A stretch of 37,093 nucleotides of DNA from an uncultured Methanosarcinales archaeon (GTDB lineage Archaea > Halobacteriota > Methanosarcinia > Methanotrichales > Methanotrichaceae). Below are positions 2,669 to 19,612 of this stretch, piece after piece. Location of the stretch: the NCBI GenBank assembly GCA_903871465.1, contig CAIQHB010000036.1, forward strand, positions 1 through 37,093, in the 5' to 3' direction. Under the pieces are notes generated by a model. The model was not told where the DNA came from and made no database searches. It worked only from the letters and a program-made list of their open reading frames with translations. Each line of letters begins with the position of its first letter. Positions within the stretch are counted from its first letter, which is position 1. The translations under genes were made by a program, and so were the position numbers.

Positions 2669-4216
2669 TCAAACGACCTCGATCTCCAGTGCATCCGAAA
2701 ACGTCTTATTGATATTTTCCAAAGATGCCACAATGTCGACCTTATAGATTCCGGCAATGACATTTGCATTCCAAATTCCTGCAAACTCGTCTCCAGAGAT
2801 TCGCTTCACTATCACCTTGGACACCTGATCTCCTTTTGGGCTATTTACAATAGCCGCGACGGTGAATCCTTTGTTCGCAGCGGTTTTTTGGGCTTGGGAC
2901 GAGGAGCCTATCTTCACCACGCCACCGCTGCTGCTTAAATCAGCGTAACCCTGGGGCGAGCCGAATCCGCAGGTGGCACATCCTTTGATGGTCAAAACCG
3001 TCTCGTTGCCAGCCTCAACGGGTGCGCTGCTAGTGCTCTGGTTTTTGAATACAACCGTCATCTGGACAACATCTCCAATCTTCGCAGGATTGGGCGTAGC
3101 CTTCGCTTCCTGCAATTCGATGTTGAGCCTGGGCTGATGGGCCTCCCAATCCTGCCAGGAGTAAATCCTGGCATCATACCCCAGAAGCGTCAGCGCAAGC
3201 CAGGTCATGGAGGCCTTGACGCCGGTATTGGTGTAGACTACTATGGGCTTATCCAACTGCTGCGAGGAGAATAGCTTTTGCAGTGCTGCCTCGTCCTTGA
3301 TCCTCTTGCCGTCCAAGACGCTGTCATAGGGAATATTAACGGCATTTGGTATCGATCCGGCGCCAAACTCAATCGGAGTTCTGGCATCGATGATCAATGG
3401 CATATTGCTATGCATGTATTCAAAAGTGGCCAGGAGATCGGCTTTTATGGATGGAGTATAGCTCTTCTGGGGGAGGATCGCGGGCTTTGTCACTGTTGGC
3501 AGCTTTGCCGCCACCCAGTCGTCGATTCCTCCGTCCAGCAGTTTGACGTTCTCATGTCCCAGATACTTCATGATCCAGTAGACATAAGCTGCTGCCGACG
3601 GTCCGCCGCCGCAGGGCTGGCATTCGCCGTAAATTAGCACGGCATCGCTTTGGGATATCCCGGAGTCGCCTAGTGTTCGAGCCATCTCGGATACAGGCAA
3701 GAGAACTCCACTCGAATCAAGGAATTTTGTATAAGGGATGTTGATCGCGCCGGGGATATACTCAGTGGAGTTGGGACTGATATCCAGAACTATCCCGGAA
3801 TTATTGGCTCTTTCCAGAGGAACCAGAACAGATGCGAACTTCTGGCTTCTCTCTATGGCGGGCTTGATGTTGGTTGACTTCGCACCGGAATCGGCGATAT
3901 TCGTGGGGCTCGGATCTTGAGCCGGGCTGCTATCCAAACTCGGTTTATCCGATGCCGCACCATTGTTTCCCGTCTGAACGAGCTGATTATTCGCCCTGGA
4001 ATATTGAGGCGAGATCAGGCCATTGGAGCTGGACATCACATCTGTCGTCGCGTTCGCATTCCCCATGAATACTGCCCACTCGTTATTCAGTACGTCCTGT
4101 TGAGCGGTGGACGATCCGCCTTTGCAGGCGCTGCATTCTCCGTTGACGCCGGAGACCAATGCAGCGAGCATTGCAATCAGCAGCAGGGTATACCCAGCAG
4201 TTCTAATTCCGTTCAT
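2669..4216 (-). CDS. Exported tandem rhodanese-domain protein with C-terminal beta domain (paralogue B)
   Basis: From the ATG at 4216 (AGAGG about 9 nt upstream) the product is 515 residues. A TTG at 4240 is an alternative start. It has a signal peptide (about 1-26), then ECSACKG (Cys28, Cys31), a Ser/Asn/Gln-rich linker to about 115, and two rhodanese domains (about 125-245 and 255-365). The first domain's active-site loop reads YGECQPCGGGP with Cys199 and Cys202. The second domain's loop reads YTNTGVKAS and has no cysteine. Residues 365-515 form an extra domain, probably an Ig-like beta fold, with a CATC pair (413/416). Typical tandem sulfurtransferases keep the catalytic Cys in the second domain, so the arrangement is reversed. 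It follows its paralogue directly. A sulfur or persulfide transfer role outside the membrane is inferred; thiosulfate as donor is not shown. Confidence 0.88.
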   Translation of the reverse strand: MNGIRTAGYTLLLIAMLAALVSGVNGECSACKGGSSTAQQDVLNNEWAVFMGNANATTDVMSSSNGLISPQYSRANNQLVQTGNNGAASDKPSLDSSPAQDPSPTNIADSGAKSTNIKPAIERSQKFASVLVPLERANNSGIVLDISPNSTEYIPGAINIPYTKFLDSSGVLLPVSEMARTLGDSGISQSDAVLIYGECQPCGGGPSAAAYVYWIMKYLGHENVKLLDGGIDDWVAAKLPTVTKPAILPQKSYTPSIKADLLATFEYMHSNMPLIIDARTPIEFGAGSIPNAVNIPYDSVLDGKRIKDEAALQKLFSSQQLDKPIVVYTNTGVKASMTWLALTLLGYDARIYSWQDWEAHQPRLNIELQEAKATPNPAKIGDVVQMTVVFKNQSTSSAPVEAGNETVLTIKGCATCGFGSPQGYADLSSSGGVVKIGSSSQAQKTAANKGFTVAAIVNSPKGDQVSKVIVKRISGDEFAGIWNANVIAGIYKVDIVASLENINKTFSDALEIEVV

Positions 4217-4236
4217 GCCTTTGCCTCTTGCCGTTT

Positions 4237-5370
4237 TCAAGCTGTAGCCTTGCTTGCATTTCCCTGGCTTGTAGCTATCTGGTTGTTCTGATAATAGTCC
4301 GCATAGCTGTAGAGCTTGGCATCATAGCCAAGAAGCTTCAGCGCAAACCATTCCACAGATCCTTTGATGCCCGTATTAGTGTAGACTACCACCGGCTGGT
4401 TCTTATGGAGGTACGAGAAGACCCTGCCGAGTTTGGTTTCATCCTTGATTCTGCTATTGCCGGCGATGACGCTTTCGTATGGAATGTTGATTGATCCTGG
4501 TATGGAGCCGTTTCCGAACTCCTGCAATGTTCTTGCGTCTATGATCTGCGCGGACCCGCTTTTCACATAATCGTAGGAGGCAATCAGATCTGTTGTGAAC
4601 TGGGCTGTATAGTTCTTGGATGGCCTTATGGCCGTCTCGTTGGTGACTGGCTTTCCTGCTGCGGCCCAATCTTTCACAGTTCCGTCTAACACCCGGAGGT
4701 TCTCCTGGCCCATGGATTTCAGCATCCAGTAAACATAAGTCGCCGGAGCCGGCCCACCGCCGCAAGGCATGCATTCGCCATAGACGACCACGGGATCTGT
4801 GCGGGTTATTCCTGCATCTCCCAGCATCTTGGAGATCTCTGCCACAGACAGCAAGCTTCCATTATTCATAAATTCTGTATAGGGGATAGCAATTGATCCC
4901 TGGATGTGTTCCGGGGGTTTCTCGCTGATGTCCAGCAAGATATCGGTGGCAGAGACGTTCTCTATTGGGACGAGCATACTCCTGGCTCCGGTGCTCCGCA
5001 CGATAGCGGCATTATCCTCTACGGGTTTGCTTTGCACAACGGTTTTTGCGGCTTTATCTGTAACGGGCGCTTTATTGTCCGGAGCGGAGGCGGCCGTCTT
5101 CGTCGCATTGCCGTTGGTGAATCCGGAGAGGGGCTCTTTCCATATGCCCACCCTATTCTTTTGAGCCGTGCTCAGACCCGGCATGACTTCTGAAGCCGCT
5201 CCTGCGTTGGGGTTACCGATCTGATCAAGCGCTTTATCTCCCGACCAGCCGGAGTCGCCTTTGCATGCATCGCAATAGGCTTCGCCCCCATGTGCCACAT
5301 TTGCCAGCATCAATAACGCTATAACTGTGACTATTCCCACTCCTGCTAAACATGATCTAAATAGTGTCAT
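4237..5370 (-). CDS. Exported tandem rhodanese-domain protein (paralogue A)
   Basis: From the ATG at 5370 the product is 377 residues; AAAAGGGGAG lies immediately upstream, with short spacing. An ATG at 5394 would add eight residues but lacks a visible ribosome site. The signal peptide spans about 1-28, followed by YCDACKG (Cys33, Cys36), a low-complexity Ala/Lys/Asn linker to about 130, then two rhodanese domains (about 130-245 and 255-360). Domain 1 has the loop YGECMPCGGGP with Cys200 and Cys203. Domain 2 has YTNTGIKGS with Thr in place of the catalytic Cys. Clear paralogue of the next gene, which has an added C-terminal domain. It lies just after the NosD-like gene (36 nt, or 12 nt from the alternative start), so one transcript is likely. 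Membership of the rhodanese fold is firm; enzymatic activity is not. Confidence 0.88.
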   Translation of the reverse strand: MTLFRSCLAGVGIVTVIALLMLANVAHGGEAYCDACKGDSGWSGDKALDQIGNPNAGAASEVMPGLSTAQKNRVGIWKEPLSGFTNGNATKTAASAPDNKAPVTDKAAKTVVQSKPVEDNAAIVRSTGARSMLVPIENVSATDILLDISEKPPEHIQGSIAIPYTEFMNNGSLLSVAEISKMLGDAGITRTDPVVVYGECMPCGGGPAPATYVYWMLKSMGQENLRVLDGTVKDWAAAGKPVTNETAIRPSKNYTAQFTTDLIASYDYVKSGSAQIIDARTLQEFGNGSIPGSINIPYESVIAGNSRIKDETKLGRVFSYLHKNQPVVVYTNTGIKGSVEWFALKLLGYDAKLYSYADYYQNNQIATSQGNASKATA

Positions 5371-5406: not shown

Positions 5407-6930
5407 TCAGGAAAAGCCGCCCCTAGCGGTCACCGATACTGTGCCCAACGTTTCTCGCAGCTCAAACCCTCGCGCGTCTGTTACGCTCAGAACTATCTCG
5501 TATTTTCCCGGGTTCAGGAGAGCTGTAGAGAAGGAACCGAGATAGAAATCCCCGGACATAACCAGTCTGGAGTAGCCCTCTGCCTCCTTTCCCGATTGGA
5601 ATGCATGTGCTGTTACTTGCGAGAGCTCATACCTGGATTTCAGCTTTGCTTTTATGGTGATGCTGTCGCCCACACTCACCTTGGTAGGAGTCAGATCCTG
5701 GCTTACAAGGCTGATCTGTTTGACCTGGTTGCCCATAACAGGATATTCATCCGATGCCTTCTCGCTTATCTTGTAGGGCGTATCTCCAAATCCGTCCTTT
5801 CCGGGGACGTTCTGGCCGGGCCCCTGCATCTCGTCGCGGCCCTGGTAGTCGCTCCAGAGGTTCCCGCCCGCGGGATATCCGGCATTCCAGGTATTTATTC
5901 CCCTGTCTTCAGCCTGAATTACATTGTCCGCGATGCTGTTTCCGTAGATTTGGTTTTTGCTCGAATCCAGGAATATTCCTGTCTGGCTATCTGATATGTT
6001 GTTGTAGATGATCGTATTGCCGTCCGAGCTGCTCTGTATCTGCAATCCATAGCGCCCATTGCCCCTGATCAGGTTCCCTTTTATGGTATTTTGTCCCGAC
6101 TCCAGGAGCGACAGACCAGCAACGGTATTATCCACCATGCTATTGTTGAGGATGAGGTTGTCGGTGCAATTGAAGCGCAGGTCCAGACCCGAATTGGTGT
6201 TTCTGGACATGTCGTTGAATTCGATGATATTCTTGGCACAATTGGTGAACATGTAAAGCCCGTACATATTCCCCTGCAACACGTTGCCTCTTATGGTATT
6301 ATTGCTGCAGGACGGGAAGAGGTTTATGCCGTAAGCGCCATTTCCATAGGCTACATTGTTCGTAATTAGGTTGTCGTTAGAGTTGGAGAGATATATTCCG
6401 TACCAACCCTCTCCGCCCAGGCCGTTAAAGCTGGCATTATTTCCCGTGATGATATTGCTGTTGGAGAAGATAAGGGCAATGCCGGGCTGAGCACAATGGA
6501 TGACGGTATTGTTGGCAATAGTACAACCGACAACACTATTGAGCTTTATTCCATAAAATCCGTCCCGGACAATGAAGCCGGTTATGCGAACATTGTCGGC
6601 CTCTACATTTATGCACGCATCCCTATTTCCGGCCCGGATAACTGCACCAGGCCCCTCCAGGTTCAGGCTCTTTTGTATGGTTATTTTGTCGTAAGCTCCC
6701 GGCGCTACCTGAAGAGTATCGCCCGCGGAGGCAGCATCTATCGCGGCTTGCAGATTCGAGCTTACCTGTATCGTGGCACCATCCGCGACTGAAGCTATCA
6801 GCAAGGCGGCGCAGAAGATGCAAAAGACTATATTTCTCAAGCGACCACCGTGACCAAGAGCAGTGGTGAGGTTAATAAAGCTAACGTAGCGGATTTTTCC
6901 GCGCAGTTGGTTAAAGTGGTTCGTTTTCAT
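5407..6930 (-). CDS. NosD-like secreted right-handed beta-helix protein
   Basis: A 507-residue exported protein. An N-terminal hydrophobic segment near residues 33-50 acts as signal peptide or anchor, preceded by an unusually long polar, basic leader. Residues about 55-350 consist of repeated beta-helix coils with the NTI..N..N signature typical of NosD/CASH-domain proteins (for example GNNASFNG, TNNVAYGNG, NNSMVDN). The block ends in the GGNLWSDYQG..D..GDTPY pattern commonly found at the end of methanogen NosD-like domains. Residues about 395-507 form a beta-sandwich domain. The start has a strong site, AGGAGG at about 6938-6943, 8 nt before the ATG. It is the first gene of the exported-protein operon. 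NosD itself helps load copper into nitrous oxide reductase, but methanogen relatives are mostly surface proteins of unknown ligand, so copper binding should not be assumed. Confidence 0.87.
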   Translation of the reverse strand: MKTNHFNQLRGKIRYVSFINLTTALGHGGRLRNIVFCIFCAALLIASVADGATIQVSSNLQAAIDAASAGDTLQVAPGAYDKITIQKSLNLEGPGAVIRAGNRDACINVEADNVRITGFIVRDGFYGIKLNSVVGCTIANNTVIHCAQPGIALIFSNSNIITGNNASFNGLGGEGWYGIYLSNSNDNLITNNVAYGNGAYGINLFPSCSNNTIRGNVLQGNMYGLYMFTNCAKNIIEFNDMSRNTNSGLDLRFNCTDNLILNNSMVDNTVAGLSLLESGQNTIKGNLIRGNGRYGLQIQSSSDGNTIIYNNISDSQTGIFLDSSKNQIYGNSIADNVIQAEDRGINTWNAGYPAGGNLWSDYQGRDEMQGPGQNVPGKDGFGDTPYKISEKASDEYPVMGNQVKQISLVSQDLTPTKVSVGDSITIKAKLKSRYELSQVTAHAFQSGKEAEGYSRLVMSGDFYLGSFSTALLNPGKYEIVLSVTDARGFELRETLGTVSVTARGGFS

Positions 6931-7083
6931 GAATTGGCCTCCTGCATACTACTTGGTTTAGATAGAATACAGTGCATTTAGATTCATGGCTCATATGGAC
7001 CAAAAGGTCGCCTAACATAAGCTACATATGAAGGTAAGTCTTTTTATTTGTTTGATTATGATACACTAGCGGAGGAATTGAAT
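6931..7083. promoter_or_regulatory. Divergent intergenic region between nosD-like and DNRLRE-like genes
   Basis: A region of 153 bp separates two divergent exported-protein genes, so it must hold both promoters. Ribosome sites are clear on both sides: AGGAGG for the minus-strand gene near 6938-6943 and GGAGGA near 7071-7076 for the plus-strand gene. A T-rich stretch around 7038-7050 and AT-rich sequence around 6955-6985 could contain TATA boxes, but neither is unambiguous. No clear operator palindrome was seen. Confidence 0.4.
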
Positions 7084-7656
7084 TTGAGATATTTGTATGC
7101 ACTCATAAGCCTTTTCCTGCTGCTGGCAGCAAATGCCGCAGCGGGGAGCTTCACAGCAAACATGGATGTTAATACCTATGTAAATGCGAATAATGTCAAC
7201 CAGAGCTATGAAGGAAGCAGTCTCCTCTGGGTTACGTCCGTTAATGGATCACCCTTGAATGAGACGTATCTGAGTTTTGTCAACCTATTTGGATCGCAGA
7301 GCATCTTCAATTCTGGTCAGATCAAGTCTGCTACGCTCACTCTGAATGCTGCCAAGGTCAATAAGACCGGCATGGTTACAGCTTACTTCTTGCATGGAGC
7401 GACATTCGATAATGCAAACTGGAATGACAAAGGTGAATATAATACCAATGTCACATCCACTCCCGTCGCCATAGAAAAGGAGGGGAACTACGTTCTGGAT
7501 GTTACACCCCTAATCAGGAAGGCTGTCGAGACCTGCACGGAAGGGTGTCCTTACACCATAGTTCTCGTGGCGGAAGGCGAGGCATCAGTCGGATTCACCT
7601 CCAGCAGGGCCTCCAGTGAGAATAAGCCGGCCCTTGAGTACACCACGGAAGAGTGA
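7084..7656 (+). CDS. Secreted DNRLRE-domain-like protein
   Basis: The start chosen is the TTG at 7084, 8 nt after GGAGG. Upstream in-frame codons would put polar residues ahead of the signal peptide. The product is 190 residues with a signal peptide (about 1-20, ending ANAAAG). The mature part is a beta-rich domain like DNRLRE/disaggregatase-related modules of methanogen surface proteins: it opens with ANMDVNTYVNA, has SYLSF/ESS-type strands, contains LDVTPLIRKAVE, and ends GFTSSRASSENKPALEY, which matches the family's characteristic final strand. One cysteine pair (TCTEGC) lies near residue 156. Whether it partners the following thioredoxin/CcdA fusion is unknown; the 217-bp gap argues for a separate promoter there. 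Confidence 0.75.
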   Translation: MRYLYALISLFLLLAANAAAGSFTANMDVNTYVNANNVNQSYEGSSLLWVTSVNGSPLNETYLSFVNLFGSQSIFNSGQIKSATLTLNAAKVNKTGMVTAYFLHGATFDNANWNDKGEYNTNVTSTPVAIEKEGNYVLDVTPLIRKAVETCTEGCPYTIVLVAEGEASVGFTSSRASSENKPALEYTTEE

Positions 7657-7873: not shown

Positions 7874-9016
7874 ATGCTCTCTCTCAAGTCTCCCTTTGGA
7901 GTCATCTGTCTCATTCTGCTCGTCTGCATAGCTCTGGTCTTTTCGAATAGCATTGTCGTGACAGGCAAAGGGGCAACAGAGGTCATCATCATTAAGTCTC
8001 CGGGGTGCACAAAATGCGCTGCAGCAGACAGAACGCTTGGGAAGGTTGGCCAAACAGTGCCCCTGAATGTCACGGGATATTATTATTATACGGACGAGGG
8101 CCATCGAATCATAAAGCAATATAATGCCAAGGATGTTCCTGCCATTATCATTGGAACCCGGGTCATAAATTACAGAGACTATGATGGGAACAATTCCAAG
8201 CTGGAACAGCTTATTTTAGAGGCTCTGGCAAACCCGAGTTCTGTTGTCAAGCCTGCAATATCTTTGCCCAGCAATGAGAGCCAAACCTCCCGCGAGGGAA
8301 ACGGCACCGGAATGGTGAACGGGCAGGACTTGCAAAAGCTCTCCATTCTTGCCATCTTAGGCGTCCTCGGAACAGGCGTTTTGGTCGGCTTCAATCCCTG
8401 CGCTCTGGCCATTCTGGTCTTCCTGGCAGCGTCCATCCTCTCCACGGAAGGAAAGAGGCGTGAGCTTTTGACGATGGTGGCATTCTTCTCCTTTGGCATC
8501 TTCACCATGTACTTCCTCTTTGGCCTGGGCATGCAGAGACTGCTGCATTTCGAGGCGATGGCCACATCCTTCCGCTATGCTGTGACTGCCCTGCTCTTGG
8601 TGGCCGGCCTTTCTCAGGTTCTGGACGCAATGCGTCTGCAACAGGGAAAACCTTCACTCTTTCGCACAGACTGGGCACTCAAGTATTTCCAGGCCGGGGT
8701 TGAGACGCGCAGTATCAGCTCCTACTTCCTGATCGGCGCGCTCTTCTCCCTTGTAAAAGCCCCCTGTGTAGGTGGCGTCTATCTTGCGATACTGGATCGT
8801 ATCTCGGCCGGAAGCTACCTTGATGGTGCTACATATCTGTTCTTCTACAATCTGGGAGTAATTCTGCCCATCTTAGTTCTAGGCAGTTTCTTGGCCCTGG
8901 GGATGAGCCCTGAGCAGGTGGACAACTTCCGCAAAGATCACCGGGTGGGAATGAGGCTGTTCACCGGCCTGATGTTGCTGGCACTGGCGCCGCTCATTTA
9001 CTGGCAGCTGATTTGA
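7874..9016 (+). CDS. Thioredoxin-fold/CcdA fusion, membrane thiol-disulfide electron carrier
   Basis: A 380-residue membrane protein. An N-terminal hydrophobic segment (about 8-26) is followed by a small glutaredoxin/thioredoxin-like domain (about 35-118) with the CxxC motif GCTKC. A polar linker (about 120-155) leads to a CcdA/DsbD-beta-like domain with about six membrane segments (about 160-380). The two conserved transmembrane cysteines are present, in FNPCALAIL and KAPCVGG. CcdA proteins move reducing equivalents from cytoplasmic thioredoxin across the membrane to outside thiols. The topology here puts the CxxC domain outside, so the protein could hand electrons to exported partners. The ATG has AAGGTGG just upstream. 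The plausible clients in this window are the Cys-containing exported rhodaneses and the Cys-rich protease; that link is inference. Confidence 0.9.
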   Translation: MLSLKSPFGVICLILLVCIALVFSNSIVVTGKGATEVIIIKSPGCTKCAAADRTLGKVGQTVPLNVTGYYYYTDEGHRIIKQYNAKDVPAIIIGTRVINYRDYDGNNSKLEQLILEALANPSSVVKPAISLPSNESQTSREGNGTGMVNGQDLQKLSILAILGVLGTGVLVGFNPCALAILVFLAASILSTEGKRRELLTMVAFFSFGIFTMYFLFGLGMQRLLHFEAMATSFRYAVTALLLVAGLSQVLDAMRLQQGKPSLFRTDWALKYFQAGVETRSISSYFLIGALFSLVKAPCVGGVYLAILDRISAGSYLDGATYLFFYNLGVILPILVLGSFLALGMSPEQVDNFRKDHRVGMRLFTGLMLLALAPLIYWQLI

Positions 9017-9120: not shown

Positions 9121-10308
9121 TTGTTTTTGGTTGGAGAGGCTCTCCTAGGAAAGGAGCCTGAGATAGCTCATATCGATCTGATCATAGGAGATAAAGAGGG
9201 ACCCGTTGGAACTGCGTTTGCCTCGGGACTCACACAGCTTTCGGCGGGGCATACGCCGCTTTTGGGTGTTATTCGGCCCAATCTACCGCCCAAGCCTTCT
9301 ACTTTAATCGTTCCCAAAGTGACTGTGAAGAACATGGATCAAGTAGCCCAGATCTTCGGTCCGGCACAGATGGCAGTGGCCAAGGCTGTGGCGGACTCTG
9401 TTGCCGAGGGCATCATACCGCGGGAGAAGGCAGAGGATCTGCTGGTAATAGTATCCGTATTCATTCATCCGCTGGCCAAGGATTACGACGCCATCTATCG
9501 CTACAATTACGGGGCCACGAAGCTGGCTTTGCAGCGCGCCATGGCAGGATTCCCGGATATCGATAAAGTTCTTTACGAGAAGGACCGCTCCACGCATCCC
9601 ATCATGGGATTCCGCGTCACGCGCCTGTGGGACCCACCATACTTGCAGGTGGCCTTCGACCTGGTAGATGTTGCCGAGGTGCGCCGGGTGCTCACTGCCT
9701 TGCCTGAGAGCGATCACATATTGATAGAGGTAGGAACTCCACTGGTGAAGATGTTAGGCGTAAACGTGGTCAAGGAGATTCGCGCCATCCGGCCGGGTGC
9801 TTTTGTCATCCTGGACCTCAAGACTCTGGATACGGGCAATCTGGAAGTGCGTCTGGCTGCAGACTCCACTGCTGATGCCGTGGTGATCTCGGGCCTCGCG
9901 CCCAAGAAGACACTCGAGCTCTCTATCAATGAGGCCAGAAAGACGGGCATCTACTCTATAATCGATATGCTCAATGTGCCAGATCCGCTGGCGGTTCTGA
10001 AGGGCCTGGATGTCCTGCCGGATGTGGTCGAGTTGCACCGGGCCATTGATAATGAAAAGAGTGCTCACGCCTGGCAGAACATCGCTGAGATGCAGGCTCT
10101 GGCCAAGGACGGCCGCAGGCTTCTCGTAGCTGTGGCGGGCGGCATTCGCGTGGATACCGAGGGTGCAGCTCTGGCTGCCGGCGCGAACATTCTCGTTGTG
10201 GGCCGGGCTATAACCAGGTCCCGTGATATTCGCGACATGGCCGAGCAGTTCCTGACGGGCCTGAAGCAGACGGAGATCGACCAATACAGGATCATGACCG
10301 ATTTCTGA
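9121..10308 (+). CDS. fae-hps: Bifunctional formaldehyde-activating enzyme / 3-hexulose-6-phosphate synthase
   Basis: A 395-residue fusion. Residues 1 to about 165 are Fae, which condenses formaldehyde with tetrahydromethanopterin; the N-terminus carries the conserved His17 in EIAHIDL. Residues about 170-390 are Hps of the OMP-decarboxylase superfamily, which interconverts formaldehyde plus ribulose 5-phosphate with hexulose 6-phosphate; [11 protein letters not shown] and the C-terminal [11 protein letters not shown] are its phosphate and metal site motifs. Fusions of this order are typical of methanogenic archaea, where the reverse reaction makes ribulose 5-phosphate and Fae scavenges the formaldehyde released. 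The start is TTG, with GAGGTGA 5 nt upstream; an in-frame stop just upstream rules out a longer form. A phosphatase-like gene follows 14 nt later. Confidence 0.95.
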
Positions 10309-13827: not shown

Positions 13828-14166
13828 CTACAGTGCCTTTCCGTCAGTCTCGCCGGTCCTGATCCGGATGGTCTTTTCCACCGGCAGGACGAAGATCTTT
13901 CCGTCACCTATATTTCCGGTATAAGCTGCCTTTCGGATTATCTCTACAACCTCATCTTCTTTTTCATCAGGAACCACTACCTCCAACTTGACCTTGGGGA
14001 GCATGTCCAACACATACTCCTCGCCTCGCCAGATCTGTTTGATGCCTTTCTGGCGTCCTCTGCCCTTCACCTCTATGGTCGTCAGGCTGGTGTAGCCGGC
14101 ATCCTCCAGCGCTTTCTTGACCTCTTCCAGCTTGGAAGGCCTCAATACGGCCTGAATCATTTTCAT
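13828..14166 (-). CDS. glnK: PII nitrogen regulatory protein GlnK (copy 1)
   Basis: A 112-residue PII protein. The T-loop region [17 protein letters not shown] keeps Tyr51, the site that some bacteria uridylylate, although position 46 is Trp rather than the common Tyr. The B-loop reads TGNIGDGKIFV, and the C-loop IRIRTGE keeps both Arg101 and Arg103. These residues bind ATP/ADP and 2-oxoglutarate in PII trimers, which plug the Amt channel when nitrogen is plentiful. The gene overlaps the end of amt copy 1 by 4 nt (ATGA), so the two are translationally coupled and surely work together. Confidence 0.96.
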   Translation of the reverse strand: MKMIQAVLRPSKLEEVKKALEDAGYTSLTTIEVKGRGRQKGIKQIWRGEEYVLDMLPKVKLEVVVPDEKEDEVVEIIRKAAYTGNIGDGKIFVLPVEKTIRIRTGETDGKAL

Positions 14167-15725
14167 TGGCTCACCTCTCTATTTGGCATGCTGGGGCATT
14201 CTGGAATTGACTCCCCCACATATCCGTTGGTGCCCATCTCCGGGACATCCAGACCGCACAGCTCTACGTTTGCATCAACTCTCAAATGGGTGACAAGTCC
14301 AATCGCTTTATAGACCATCAGCGACAGCAGCCCTACTACAACTATGTTAGTCACGACGCCTATCACTTCCGCGGCGAACTGCCCGGCATCTCCATAGAAC
14401 AGCCCGGTTACAGTTCCAGGCACACCGTTCCAGCCTTCTCCGTAGGTGCCATCGGCGAATAAGCCCAGAGCCAGACAGCCCCAGGCACCATTTACCAGAT
14501 GCACGGATAGAGCACCCACTGGATCGTCGAGCTTCATCTTTCTCTCCCAGAAGTAGACCGATTCCACCACCAGTACACCGGAAACCAGACCTATGAGGGC
14601 GGCAGCCTGGGCGTTGACGAAGGCGCAGGGGGCGGTGATGGCCACCAGGCCGGCCAGCATTCCATTGGCCATCATGCTCGGGTCAGGTTTTTTGGTTCTC
14701 ACCGCCCACATCCAGGCGGTAGCGGCCAGGGCGCCAGTAGCCGAAGCGAGCATGGTGTTCACTGCGGCCACAGCGATGCGGTAATCAGTGCCCGCAAGGC
14801 TCGAGCCGGCATTGAAGCCGAACCATCCGAAGGCCAATATGAAGGTGCCGATCAGTGCCATGGGAATGCTGTGGCCGGGTATGGCGTTGACGCTGCCGTC
14901 TTTGTTGAATTTGCCGATGCGCGGGCCAATCAGCCAGGCCCCCACCAGGCCGCAGACGCCTCCTGTCATGTGCACTACCGAGGAGCCGGCGAAGTCCACA
15001 TGTCCGTGTCCCAGGCCGAAGTTCACGCCCAGTTGTGCCAGCCAGCCTCCGCCCCATACCCAGTTGCCGAAGACCGGATAGATCAGAGCGCCCACGAAGA
15101 AGCCGAAGAGGCAGAAGGAAGCGAACTTCCAGCGTTCCGCCAGGGCACCCGTGGGAATGGTGGCCGCCGTATCCATGAATACCATCTGGAACAGGAATAG
15201 GGCGAAGACCGCCACATCATAGACACCTACCAGGAAGAAGCCCTTGGTTCCAAAGAGCCCGAAGCTGTGGCCCATCAGATGGAGGGTGAACTCCTGGTTA
15301 AGCCCTGCGAAGCCGCCCATGGTACTGATGGGGCCAAAGCCTCCGAACATGATGGCAAACCCGGTAACGAAGAATCCCAGCATGCCCAGGGGATAGACCA
15401 GGAAGTTCATGGCCATGGTATGGGCCACGTTCTTGGCCCGGCACAGGCCCGTCTCAACCATGGCGAAGCCCGCCTGCATGAACATGACCAGGAATCCTGC
15501 GAGCAATGTCCACATCATATTTATGGCCACTTTATTATGACCTACGGCGTCAGCCACTTCCAGGGGGGTGGGCTGGCCGGGAGACAAAGCCGAGATATCA
15601 TTGACGTTTCCCGTATTTGTTCCACTCGCATCTGGTGCCCGTTCTTCGCCCGAACAGATAACCGAGACAGCCAGCAGCGCAACAATAAGACATAAACTGA
15701 CTCTCCATAATGTTCTAGGTAACAT
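14163..15725 (-). CDS. amt: Ammonium transporter Amt (copy 1, long form)
   Basis: The ATG at 15725 is chosen because AGGAAGGG precedes it and a signal-peptide-like segment follows at once; an ATG at 15791 lies close to the predicted start of transcription. The product is about 520 residues, longer than the two other Amt proteins here (423 and 402). It has an N-terminal cleavable-type leader, a Ser/Thr/Asn/Gly segment, then eleven membrane helices. Channel motifs are present: ALAERWKF, DFAGSSVVH with the first pore His, WFGFNAGSS with the Phe gate, and LSVHLVNGAWG with the second pore His. Amt proteins recruit NH4+ and conduct NH3 across the membrane as trimers. Transcribed divergently from amt copy 2; the shared spacer carries one regulatory element for each gene. 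Confidence 0.95.
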   Translation of the reverse strand: MLPRTLWRVSLCLIVALLAVSVICSGEERAPDASGTNTGNVNDISALSPGQPTPLEVADAVGHNKVAINMMWTLLAGFLVMFMQAGFAMVETGLCRAKNVAHTMAMNFLVYPLGMLGFFVTGFAIMFGGFGPISTMGGFAGLNQEFTLHLMGHSFGLFGTKGFFLVGVYDVAVFALFLFQMVFMDTAATIPTGALAERWKFASFCLFGFFVGALIYPVFGNWVWGGGWLAQLGVNFGLGHGHVDFAGSSVVHMTGGVCGLVGAWLIGPRIGKFNKDGSVNAIPGHSIPMALIGTFILAFGWFGFNAGSSLAGTDYRIAVAAVNTMLASATGALAATAWMWAVRTKKPDPSMMANGMLAGLVAITAPCAFVNAQAAALIGLVSGVLVVESVYFWERKMKLDDPVGALSVHLVNGAWGCLALGLFADGTYGEGWNGVPGTVTGLFYGDAGQFAAEVIGVVTNIVVVGLLSLMVYKAIGLVTHLRVDANVELCGLDVPEMGTNGYVGESIPECPSMPNREVSQ

Positions 15726-15755
15726 TTTCAATTCCCTTCCTGTGGATACACTGAT

Positions 15756-15778
15756 CTGTGCGATATTGATCTGCACAG
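15756..15778. repeat. Short inverted repeat in amt-1 leader
   Basis: CTGTGC and GCACAG flank 11 nt (15756-15761 and 15773-15778). It lies between the predicted TATA box near 15807-15815 and the amt-1 ATG at 15725, so it falls close to the start of transcription or in the leader. It could be a repressor site or a leader hairpin; no matching copy lies upstream of the other amt genes. Confidence 0.45.
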
Positions 15779-15803
15779 TAGTGATTCGCACTTCTTACTC
15801 AGA

Positions 15804-15815
15804 GTGTATATAAAT
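15804..15815 (-). promoter_or_regulatory. TATA box of amt copy 1
   Basis: On the minus strand this reads ATTTATATACAC, a good archaeal TATA box. A start of transcription about 25 nt downstream would fall near 15785 and give a leader of about 60 nt before the ATG at 15725. It lies about 14 bp downstream (in the sense of amt-1) of the conserved three-half-site element. Confidence 0.6.
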
Positions 15816-15829
15816 CTAGTTAAAATTTG

Positions 15830-15855
15830 TTCATAATTTTTATGAAATTTTCAGA
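15830..15855 (-). promoter_or_regulatory. Three-half-site regulatory element upstream of amt-1
   Basis: In the amt-1 sense this reads TCTGAA-AAT-TTCATA-AAAAT-TATGAA. The last two half-sites form a perfect palindrome on the plus strand (TTCATAATTTTTATGAA, 15830-15846), and the first half-site is one mismatch from TATGAA. The same order and spacing occur before amt-2 and amt-3. The whole 15726-16049 spacer (324 bp) is AT-rich and holds only promoter elements; no RNA gene is seen. The site lies upstream of the TATA box, a position that more often suits an activator than a repressor in archaea. Confidence 0.78.
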
Positions 15856-15967
15856 TTAGCTATGTATAGCAAATTGTTTCTTAATAATCTATTCAATATG
15901 CAGAAAGAGCTTGCATTCAATGGGTCACAAACAGTCCTGCTTAAAGGCAAATCGTTCGTTTAGCTGT

Positions 15968-15993
15968 TATGATCTTTTCATACTCTTTATGAA
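15968..15993 (+). promoter_or_regulatory. Three-half-site regulatory element upstream of amt-2
   Basis: Reads TATGAT-CTT-TTCATA-CTCTT-TATGAA. The second and third half-sites make a TTCATA-N5-TATGAA palindrome (15977-15993); the first has one mismatch. It ends 25 bp before a TATA-like box (ttataaaata, about 16019-16028) and 56 bp before the GTG start of amt-2. Same architecture as the elements of amt-1 and amt-3. Confidence 0.78.
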
Positions 15994-16018
15994 CTCTGCA
16001 TACATTTTCCTAAATATG

Positions 16019-16028
16019 CTTATAAAAT
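16019..16028 (+). promoter_or_regulatory. TATA box of amt copy 2 (leaderless promoter)
   Basis: TTATAAAATA lies about 25 nt upstream of the GTG at 16050, the distance expected between an archaeal TATA box and its start of transcription. No ribosome site is seen before the GTG. Together these suggest a leaderless transcript that starts at or near the first codon. Confidence 0.55.
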
Positions 16029-16049
16029 ATGCATTTGCCTTAACGCCTG

Positions 16050-17321
16050 GTGGTAACAACGCGTACATTCTGGTCATTACTATTACTAGCTCTGCTGATT
16101 GGCACAGCATCTGCAGATGAGGGAACGATAAATGCTGCGGATAATGCCTGGGTCCTGATCAGTGCTGCTCTGGTCTTAATCATGATTCCAGGGGTTGGAC
16201 TCTTCTACGGGGGCATGGTCAGGAAGAAGAATGCTATCTCCACGATAATATTCAGCTTTGCCGTCATGAGCATCATAAGCTTGCAGTGGATCCTGTATGG
16301 CTATACCCTGGCCTTTGGAAAGGACATATCCGGCCTCATAGGCGGCCTCGATTTCCTGGGCCTGAACGGTGTAGGCATGGGTGTGAAAGAGGGCCTGACC
16401 ATCCCCGCTCTCACCTTTATGATCTTTCAGGCCATGTTTGCCATCATCACTGTATCCCTGATCACGGGCAGCTATGTGGAGCGTATCAAGTTCAGCTCCT
16501 TCCTGGTCTTCTCTCTGGCCTGGGCCACTCTGGTCTATGATCCTGTAGCTCACTGGGTCTGGGGTGGAGGCTGGCTGCAACAGATGGGTGTCCTGGACTT
16601 CGCCGGAGGAATAGTGGTGCATATCACGGCTGGTGTCTCGGCCATGGCAGTAGCTATGGTCATCGGTGTTCGCAAGGGATTCGGAACCGACCCCATGGAG
16701 CCGCATAATATTCCTACGACCGTCATGGGCGCGGCTCTGCTCTGGTTTGGCTGGTTTGGTTTCAACGCCGGCTCAGCACTAGCGGCTAACGGCATTGCAG
16801 CCAATGCTTTTGTCACCACCAATACATCTGCCGCGGCAGCTGCAACGACCTGGATGCTTCTCTCCTGGAGGCAGAGAGCGCCTTCCGCCCTGGGAATCGT
16901 GACCGGTGCCGTGGCTGGCCTCGCTGCGATAACGCCTGCTGCGGGCTTCGTGACGCCCCTGGCGGCGATTCCAATAGGCATCGTGGCCGCCATTGCCGGA
17001 TACTACGCTATCATCCTGATCCGAGGCAGCAAAAAGGTAGATGACTCTCTGGATGTCCTGGCCTGCCACGGCATAGGTAGCACCTGGGGTGTCCTGGCTA
17101 CCGGCATCTTTGCCACCATCGGCGCCACGGGACTCCTGGCGGGCAACTCCCATCAGGTCGTGGTGCAGATTATAGCCATTGGAGTCACCTGGGGCTACTC
17201 CTTCCTGGTCACCTTCGGTCTCGCCAAGATCATTGATGCGGTCATGGGTCTGCGGGTCCGGGATGATGAAGAATCCGTGGGTCTGGACATCAGCCAGCAT
17301 GGTGAAGGCGCCTATATGTGA
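16050..17321 (+). CDS. amt: Ammonium transporter Amt (copy 2)
   Basis: A 423-residue ammonium channel. The GTG start is followed by a short signal-peptide-like helix (WSLLLLALLIGTASA), then eleven membrane helices beginning [24 protein letters not shown]. Key motifs: FQAMFAIIT with the outer Phe gate, DFAGGIVVH with the first pore His, WFGFNAGSA with the second Phe, and LACHGIGSTWG with the second pore His. The C-terminal tail [14 protein letters not shown] is the cytoplasmic region that contacts GlnK. glnK copy 2 starts 9 nt after the stop, so they form one operon. Very close to amt copy 3 in sequence, consistent with a tandem duplication of the amt-glnK unit. Confidence 0.97.
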   Translation: MVTTRTFWSLLLLALLIGTASADEGTINAADNAWVLISAALVLIMIPGVGLFYGGMVRKKNAISTIIFSFAVMSIISLQWILYGYTLAFGKDISGLIGGLDFLGLNGVGMGVKEGLTIPALTFMIFQAMFAIITVSLITGSYVERIKFSSFLVFSLAWATLVYDPVAHWVWGGGWLQQMGVLDFAGGIVVHITAGVSAMAVAMVIGVRKGFGTDPMEPHNIPTTVMGAALLWFGWFGFNAGSALAANGIAANAFVTTNTSAAAAATTWMLLSWRQRAPSALGIVTGAVAGLAAITPAAGFVTPLAAIPIGIVAAIAGYYAIILIRGSKKVDDSLDVLACHGIGSTWGVLATGIFATIGATGLLAGNSHQVVVQIIAIGVTWGYSFLVTFGLAKIIDAVMGLRVRDDEESVGLDISQHGEGAYM

Positions 17322-17669
<348 letters not shown>

Positions 17670-18059
17670 CTGCTCTGCGTCTTCCCCTAATCCAGGACTG
17701 CCCTCATCCATATTTTCAACGCAAATAGGTCTATCATATAATTATTAATACGATATTTCAGGTGCCCACATCTTTTCCCTAAATCATACATTCCCGGTCT
17801 AATTAAGCAAAAATGGGACATTACCTCAAAAAATTATTTAAATAATCAGCCCACCATAAGAGAACTGTAGATTATGCACATCTATGAACGGATATGAACT
17901 ATTCATAGCTTTTACGAATTTGTATCAAATACCCTTTTTAATCCCTCGGGCTAAGATTTGTTCAGCAAATGCCGGATCGAATCTACCGTGATGGTTCGGA
18001 CGGCTATACAAAAAATTGAATATCTTTCGCGTTCATATAATATTCAAGGGTGATGCAGT
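17670..18059 (+). other. 390-bp intergenic spacer with amt-3 promoter
   Basis: Contains an AT-rich perfect palindrome (ATTATTTAAATAAT, 17833-17846), a cluster of four TATGAA-type half-sites (17883-17918), T-rich TATA-like sequence near 17934-17943 and again at 18034-18041, and a weak two-part stem at 17971-18004 (GCCG/CGGC and CGAA/TTCG). A good ribosome site, GGGTGAT, lies at about 18049-18055. If the TATA near 17935 is used, amt-3 has a leader of about 95 nt. No coding or RNA gene is recognised. Confidence 0.5.
17893..17918 (+). promoter_or_regulatory. Three-half-site regulatory element upstream of amt-3
   Basis: Reads TATGAA-CTA-TTCATA-GCTTT-TACGAA, the same order and spacing as before amt-1 and amt-2. 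A fourth TATGAA at 17883-17888 lies exactly 10 bp upstream of the first, and the outer half-sites are 20 bp apart, so direct half-sites sit on one face of the helix. It ends 141 bp before the TTG start of amt-3 and about 16 bp before a TATA-like stretch. Confidence 0.78.

Positions 18060-19612
<1,553 letters not shown>

Follow-up and report, generated by a model that had tools for sequence, protein, structure and literature searches.

The closest described systems are the tandem TST/MST sulfurtransferases, such as SseA, CysA2/3 and bovine rhodanese. These enzymes carry two rhodanese domains (PF00581) in each chain, and the canonical cysteine directly follows a strand of domain 2, in a CRxGxR loop. 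Other proteins of the rhodanese fold, the phosphatases and arsenate reductases of the Cdc25/Acr2 type, have a lengthened active loop of the form HCx5R. Proteins of the CcmG/TlpA/ResA type are extracytoplasmic thiol-disulfide proteins that are fed by CcdA and have a thioredoxin fold. Finally, TsoB (NF045694) is a rhodanese/DsbD fusion-like selenoprotein of the Tso operon (PMC13188914), and it provides a precedent for a rhodanese coupled to a DsbD-like thiol system.

The window, a stretch of 37,093 nucleotides from an uncultured, Methanothrix-like Methanosarcinales archaeon, encodes two predicted exported proteins, here called A and B, that can be compared with each of these systems. Like the tandem sulfurtransferases, A and B have two rhodanese domains in one chain. 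However, they lack the cysteine, the CRxGxR loop and the GW motif of domain 2, and they have an inserted CxPCGGGP loop in domain 1, predicted export and additional CxxC pairs. A conserved CxxC (in 105 of 113 family members) and genetic linkage to a CcdA/DsbD conduit are shared with CcmG, TlpA and ResA, and A and B would be exported as these are, but the fold is that of rhodanese rather than thioredoxin, and it is gene linkage that points to reduction by CcdA. The fold with a lengthened active loop recalls Cdc25 and Acr2, although HCx5R is not found in the A/B family, where the loop reads GECxPCGGGP. Unlike TsoB, the rhodanese and CcdA are here encoded by separate genes, and the pair consists of cysteine rather than selenocysteine.

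Judged by their sequences, A and B fit none of the curated families. They score 63 and 69 bits with the MST model NF008557, for which the cut-off is 250, and 19.4 bits with the TsoB model, for which it is 805. The NCBIfam names include TsoR as well, for an ArsR-type regulator. Coupling of a rhodanese to DsbD in general thus has a precedent already; the new part of the finding is the CcdA and small-thioredoxin context in two conserved operons. In full-text literature searches, no description of the family was found beyond the use of Mthe_1071 as a qPCR target.

The preferred reading, given a probability of about 0.45, is that A and B are extracytoplasmic dithiol proteins built on a dead sulfurtransferase scaffold and re-reduced through CcdA, the CxPC having been gained and the domain-2 cysteine then lost.

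Architecture and conservation of the paired cysteines

Gene A (positions 4237 to 5370, minus strand) encodes 377 amino acids from its ATG, and gene B (2669 to 4216, minus strand) encodes 515. The original prediction assigned two rhodanese domains to both proteins, and Pfam indeed finds two Rhodanese stretches in each (E = 6e-19 and 6e-23). Both consist of a hydrophobic N-terminal segment, a linker and the two rhodanese domains, to which B adds a beta-rich, Ig-like C-terminal domain.

The domain-1 loop of A is YGECMPCGGGP, with Cys200 and Cys203 (codons of GECMPCGGGP at 4750 to 4779, minus strand). That of B is YGECQPCGGGP, with Cys199 and Cys202 (codons of GECQPCGGGP at 3599 to 3628, minus strand), and it is invariant in the 13 aligned B sequences. 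The corresponding domain-2 loops, YTNTGIK in A (4363 to 4383, minus strand) and YTNTGVK in B (3215 to 3235, minus strand), have no cysteine; alignment places a threonine at the canonical position in both. Two cysteines in loop 1 and none in loop 2 are what had been predicted.

Further CxxC pairs had been overlooked. In A, the pair CDAC (within YCDACK, 5263 to 5274, minus strand) lies right after the hydrophobic export segment, and its Cys33 and Cys36 are nearly invariant. B has CSAC at the same place (within ECSACK, 4124 to 4135, minus strand) and another pair in its C-terminal domain (GCATCGFG, 2969 to 2980, minus strand). Every cysteine of mature A and B belongs to a CxxC pair, at the N-terminus, in loop 1 or, in B, also in the C-terminal domain. 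Across the family, 469 of the 577 cysteines downstream of the hydrophobic N-terminus sit in such pairs.

Homologues were found in all 50 Methanotrichales genomes searched, usually in 2 to 10 copies. An alignment of 28 sequences, comprising both paralogues from the window and from related genome contigs, has GEC..CGGGP in every row; YTNTG is conserved to at least 90%. Of the two loops proposed as possibly invariant, the first is so within this alignment and the second nearly so. In the wider set of 113 Methanotrichales members, the loop-1 CxxC is kept in 105 and both of its cysteines are missing in 8. (The canonical-type sequences L008 and L062:4344 were left out of this set as distant homologues.) This conservation across the order rules out the chance degeneration of one gene pair, and the original description of the loops as no random defect stands.

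Loop 1 contains two cysteines in 104 of the 113 members, three in one and none in 8; a single cysteine was found in none. Such both-or-neither conservation fits a disulfide or metal pair, as had been suggested, better than a single persulfide cysteine. The residues between the two cysteines are mostly LP, QP or MP. The thioredoxin motif, CGPC, likewise has an xP between its cysteines. The canonical domain-2 cysteine is found in none of the 113 members, which have threonine, serine, alanine or another residue in its place, and the C-x-x-G-x-[RT] loop with a cysteine directly after the domain-2 strand does not occur among them. The DG(S/G)W motif is missing from domain 2 in the Methanotrichales members inspected, whereas domain 1 usually keeps its LDGG...W motif.

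A strongly hydrophobic N-terminal segment, as judged by hydrophobicity, is present in 110 of the 113 members. The loop pair is independent of the N-terminal CxxC, since it is present in 13 members that lack any N-terminal cysteine. A metal site that needs both pairs of the same chain is thereby ruled out. Paralogues in which both loops are free of cysteine occur at L005, L006, L071:5130-6218, L159:6743-7828 and L132, and several of them adjoin ArsR-type regulators.

An AlphaFold2 model of A has a mean pLDDT of 74, with values mostly above 90 in the rhodanese domains and 77 in the loop block. The model of B has a mean of 67.6 and a beta-rich C-terminal region. The best Foldseek matches of A are tandem sulfurtransferases, such as 3hwi (TMt 0.75-0.76), followed by EanB; the best sequence matches in the PDB are 3aax and 3hwi. 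In the model of A, loop residues 198-207 fall between a strand (194-197) and a helix (208-219), which is the position of the rhodanese catalytic loop. In the alignment to solved tandem sulfurtransferases, the domain-1 loop is longer by about five residues, and the CxPC sits in this insertion. The two cysteines lie 3 and 6 residues after the tyrosine at the strand end, and thus off the canonical position.

One explanation of this arrangement is that the domain-1 loop is still a sulfurtransferase site, moved from domain 2, in which one cysteine carries a persulfide and the other tunes it. The modelled placement of the loop, at the N-terminus of a helix, would suit such a site, as would the LDGG...W of domain 1, and one family locus of M. 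thermoacetophila adjoins both a metallo-beta-lactamase/rhodanese gene and a canonical tandem rhodanese. However, neither cysteine directly follows the strand, since both are in the insertion; the loop reads GGGP and has no conserved anion pocket of the CRxGx[RT] type; and the cysteines are never lost singly in Methanotrichales. A moved sulfurtransferase site is thus improbable.

Probable order of gain and loss

In a search of 393 genomes across the phylum, strong homologues outside Methanotrichales were limited to family f9 and a single genome, G289, of family f8. The McrA of f9 has its best match in 3SQG, aligned over 579 of 579 residues. This entry is presumably the ANME-1 MCR structure, and for this reason f9 is taken to be ANME-1. 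For G289, no McrA match was found. In the ANME-1 class, 7 of 58 genomes match the family, one of them (G275, family f34) weakly. In three ANME-1 genomes (loci L144, L145 and L150), the mcr genes have one paralogue a few kb upstream of them.

These outgroup proteins carry the canonical domain-2 cysteine, as in YCRSGARSS, YCWSGASSS and YCKSGLRSS. Five of the ten sequences also have a CxxC in domain 1 (YSDTCKPCGG, YSDTCQTCGG, YSDSCKECGG), and the others have one cysteine or rearranged cysteines there. The C-terminal-domain pair of B is likewise present in ANME-1 homologues, as CAGC, CADC or CAYC. Most ANME-1 and haloarchaeal relatives also keep the DG(S/G)W motif that the Methanotrichales proteins lack.

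The original prediction had described the active sites as reversed between the domains and had named homologues with the standard loop order as evidence to the contrary. Such homologues exist in part, since the domain-2 cysteine is present in the outgroup (YC[RKWEQ]SG) and half of the sequences combine it with the domain-1 pair. The idea of a reversal has to be given up. ANME-1 and one other lineage possess the canonical cysteine, and the position of the pair also speaks against it, because the canonical cysteine directly follows the strand and the pair does not.

A maximum-likelihood tree was built with a quick search and SH-aLRT support; it has long branches and some unresolved inner forks. 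On this tree, a supported split (98) separates the ANME-1/f8 and Methanotrichales groups from the canonical haloarchaeal enzymes, and the domain-2 cysteine changes once. Together with the ANME-1 and G289 homologues, the tree rules out a true swap of active sites between the domains. Because the outgroup has the domain-2 cysteine and half of it also the domain-1 CxxC, the sequences suggest that the pair came first. The most likely history is that a CxxC pair was added to a normal tandem sulfurtransferase and that the canonical cysteine was lost later, once, in the ancestor of Methanotrichales.

Two conserved operons and the CcdA conduit

In the window, A and B belong to an inferred operon on the minus strand. 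It begins with a gene for a NosD-like beta-helix secreted protein (5407 to 6930; PF05048/PF13229) and continues with A and B, an S8 subtilase gene directly downstream of B (745 to 2637; PF00082, E = 4e-57) and a class II aldolase-family gene at its end (186 to 737; PF00596). The five genes are arranged head to tail, with gaps of 36, 20, 31 and 7 bases. This gene order recurs across Methanotrichaceae, and the subtilase and aldolase-family genes are conserved neighbours. No ArsR or permease gene was found in the operon.

Divergent from the operon is a gene on the plus strand for a secreted CBM96/DNRLRE protein (7048 to 7656; PF24517, NF033679), which adjoins the CcdA gene in both operon types. 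It is followed by the gene (7874 to 9016, plus strand; PF02683/PF13386) for a membrane thiol conduit of the CcdA/DsbD type to which a thioredoxin-like domain (SPGCTKC) is fused; the cysteine motifs, including GFNPC and KAPCVG, are conserved. Next are a gene for Fae and HUMPS/OMP-decarboxylase-family domains (9121-10308; Pfam) and one of the alkaline phosphatase superfamily. Farther along the window, at 13828-19612, there are three consecutive pairs of ammonium transporter and PII (GlnK) genes.

A second operon, for which no published description as a unit was found, consists of genes for ArsR, an ArsP_1 permease, in some cases CBM96, CcdA, Trx_3, DGC and one or more CxPC rhodaneses, in an order that varies locally. 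It occurs in the same genome (L053:5471-10996, contig C80) and at L057, L066, L072, L139, L142, L158, L160 and L162.

CcdA homologues are present in all 50 Methanotrichales genomes, mostly one to three in each. They keep GFNPC, nearly all have a second PC motif, and most have the N-terminal thioredoxin-like domain with SPGC[TS]KC. Three copies have lost this domain and kept both membrane PC motifs (L053:6973-7917, L141:4601-5452, L158:8468-9391). Each of them adjoins Trx_3 and rhodanese genes, so that these neighbours are left as candidate partners. The Trx_3 proteins beside these copies have no obvious export signal. Trx_3 is thus more likely to be a cytoplasmic donor there, and another extracytoplasmic carrier could exist.

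The linkage can be counted at loci longer than 5 kb, which hold 81 members with the CxxC. A CcdA or small thioredoxin (Trx_3) gene lies within 4 kb of 55 of these, and 75 are found in one or the other conserved context, leaving 6 in neither. By genome, at least 34 of 50 have a CcdA homologue within about 5 kb of a family member, as found by comparing two listings by eye. CcdA linkage cannot be called peculiar to the cysteine-bearing members: the difference from the cysteine-less ones (55/81 against 2/6) is in the right direction and not significant (p = 0.18). Members from the genus of M. thermoacetophila do not adjoin CcdA, and no CcdA neighbour was seen for the ANME-1 homologues.

The ars-like character of the second operon keeps another explanation alive, namely that the CxPC loop and the other CxxC pairs bind a thiophilic metal or metalloid, such as As(III), methylarsenite, Cu or Zn, and that the proteins are extracytoplasmic buffers. 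The ArsR/SmtB-type regulator carries a CVC motif, an ArsP_1 permease is encoded beside it, and Trx_3 scores above the NCBIfam cut-off for MTH895/ArsE (102 bits against 62). Several short-spaced cysteine pairs in each protein would suit metal binding, and the NosD-type beta-helix gene of the window operon could be read in the same way. Against this, the permease and CcdA score far under the cut-offs for named metal(loid) exporters (110 of 300 bits and 97 of 325, and 27 of 200 for ArsG), the window operon has neither regulator nor permease, the N-terminal pair is dispensable, and the loop has no conserved third or fourth ligand. Metal(loid) buffering is on balance unlikely, if a serious candidate.

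Yet another explanation makes the cysteines structural, with the dead enzyme fold serving as the scaffold of surface or sheath components that are held together by disulfides. The members are predicted to be exported and often have extra Ig-like domains and CxxC pairs. At an M. thermoacetophila-like locus, L063:4522-8678, a CxPC rhodanese matching Mthe_1071 directly follows mspA and Mthe_1070; the match to Mthe_1069-1071 was made by gene order and protein size, with the loci named as in PMC10470525. In a congener (L137:6377-9140), a CxPC rhodanese is followed by secreted N/Q-rich repeat ORFs (QSN...), amyloid-type-like and without a Pfam match. Disulfides are believed to link the sheath hoops, and sheath proteins are encoded by all Methanotrichales and by 40% of Alkanophagales (ANME-1) (PMC11576556); sheath disulfides are also treated in PMC10593813. 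The mspA linkage and this literature keep a surface or sheath role under consideration. However, the mspA linkage is found at a single locus and is ruled out as a general rule, and MspA has been doubted as the main sheath protein (PMC11576556). Moreover, a C-x-P-C in a loop beside a helix is a more typical arrangement for exchange than for cross-linking, and linkage to CcdA predicts reduction. A purely cross-linking role is thus quite improbable.

A proposed dithiol function and what it would mean

A and B probably work in redox reactions or in sulfur handling, and not as ordinary sulfurtransferases. Several features favour an extracytoplasmic dithiol function: the cysteines behave as a pair, the motif is CxPC, the canonical site is dead, export is predicted, and the genes are linked to CcdA and thioredoxin. 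It builds on features that are observed: the rhodanese fold, the cysteine pair, of which both members are kept or both are missing, the one loss of the canonical cysteine, and gene linkage to CcdA and to a small thioredoxin.

The proposed reaction would start with the domain-1 cysteine pair, which is predicted to attack a disulfide, a protein persulfide or a polysulfide, or to capture a thiophilic metalloid. The attacking pair would end up as an intramolecular disulfide. Electrons passing through the CcdA-type conduit from the other side of the membrane would then reduce this disulfide again, by way of the conduit's thioredoxin-like domain where one is present. The role of CcdA as reductant is suggested by gene linkage; the direction of electron flow, the substrate and the location of the mature proteins at the surface are predicted. 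Secreted surface proteins would be the clients in the case of the window operon, and a metal(loid) or sulfur species that reacts with thiols would be the trigger in that of the second operon. The neighbouring genes may instead be regulated together without taking part in a common reaction.

Methanothrix is one of the major methanogens that use acetate. Every genome sampled from its order encodes several proteins of the family together with a CcdA conduit. A broader proposal, speculative and rather unlikely as it stands, is that a rhodanese fold has become the terminal CxxC reductase of the CcdA membrane thiol pathway, controlling the disulfides or persulfides at the surface of Methanotrichales, whose genomes encode an amyloid-like sheath, and that these proteins would form a new class of sheath-assembly or maintenance factors.

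Should the dithiol reading hold, CxxC exchange would have one more scaffold in the rhodanese fold. A sulfurtransferase would have arrived there by first gaining a pair and then losing its former active site, and ANME-1 would still show the intermediates. No sheath-assembly proteins could previously be assigned from genomic context (PMC11576556), and the family would supply named candidates for the disulfide-handling factors of archaeal sheaths.
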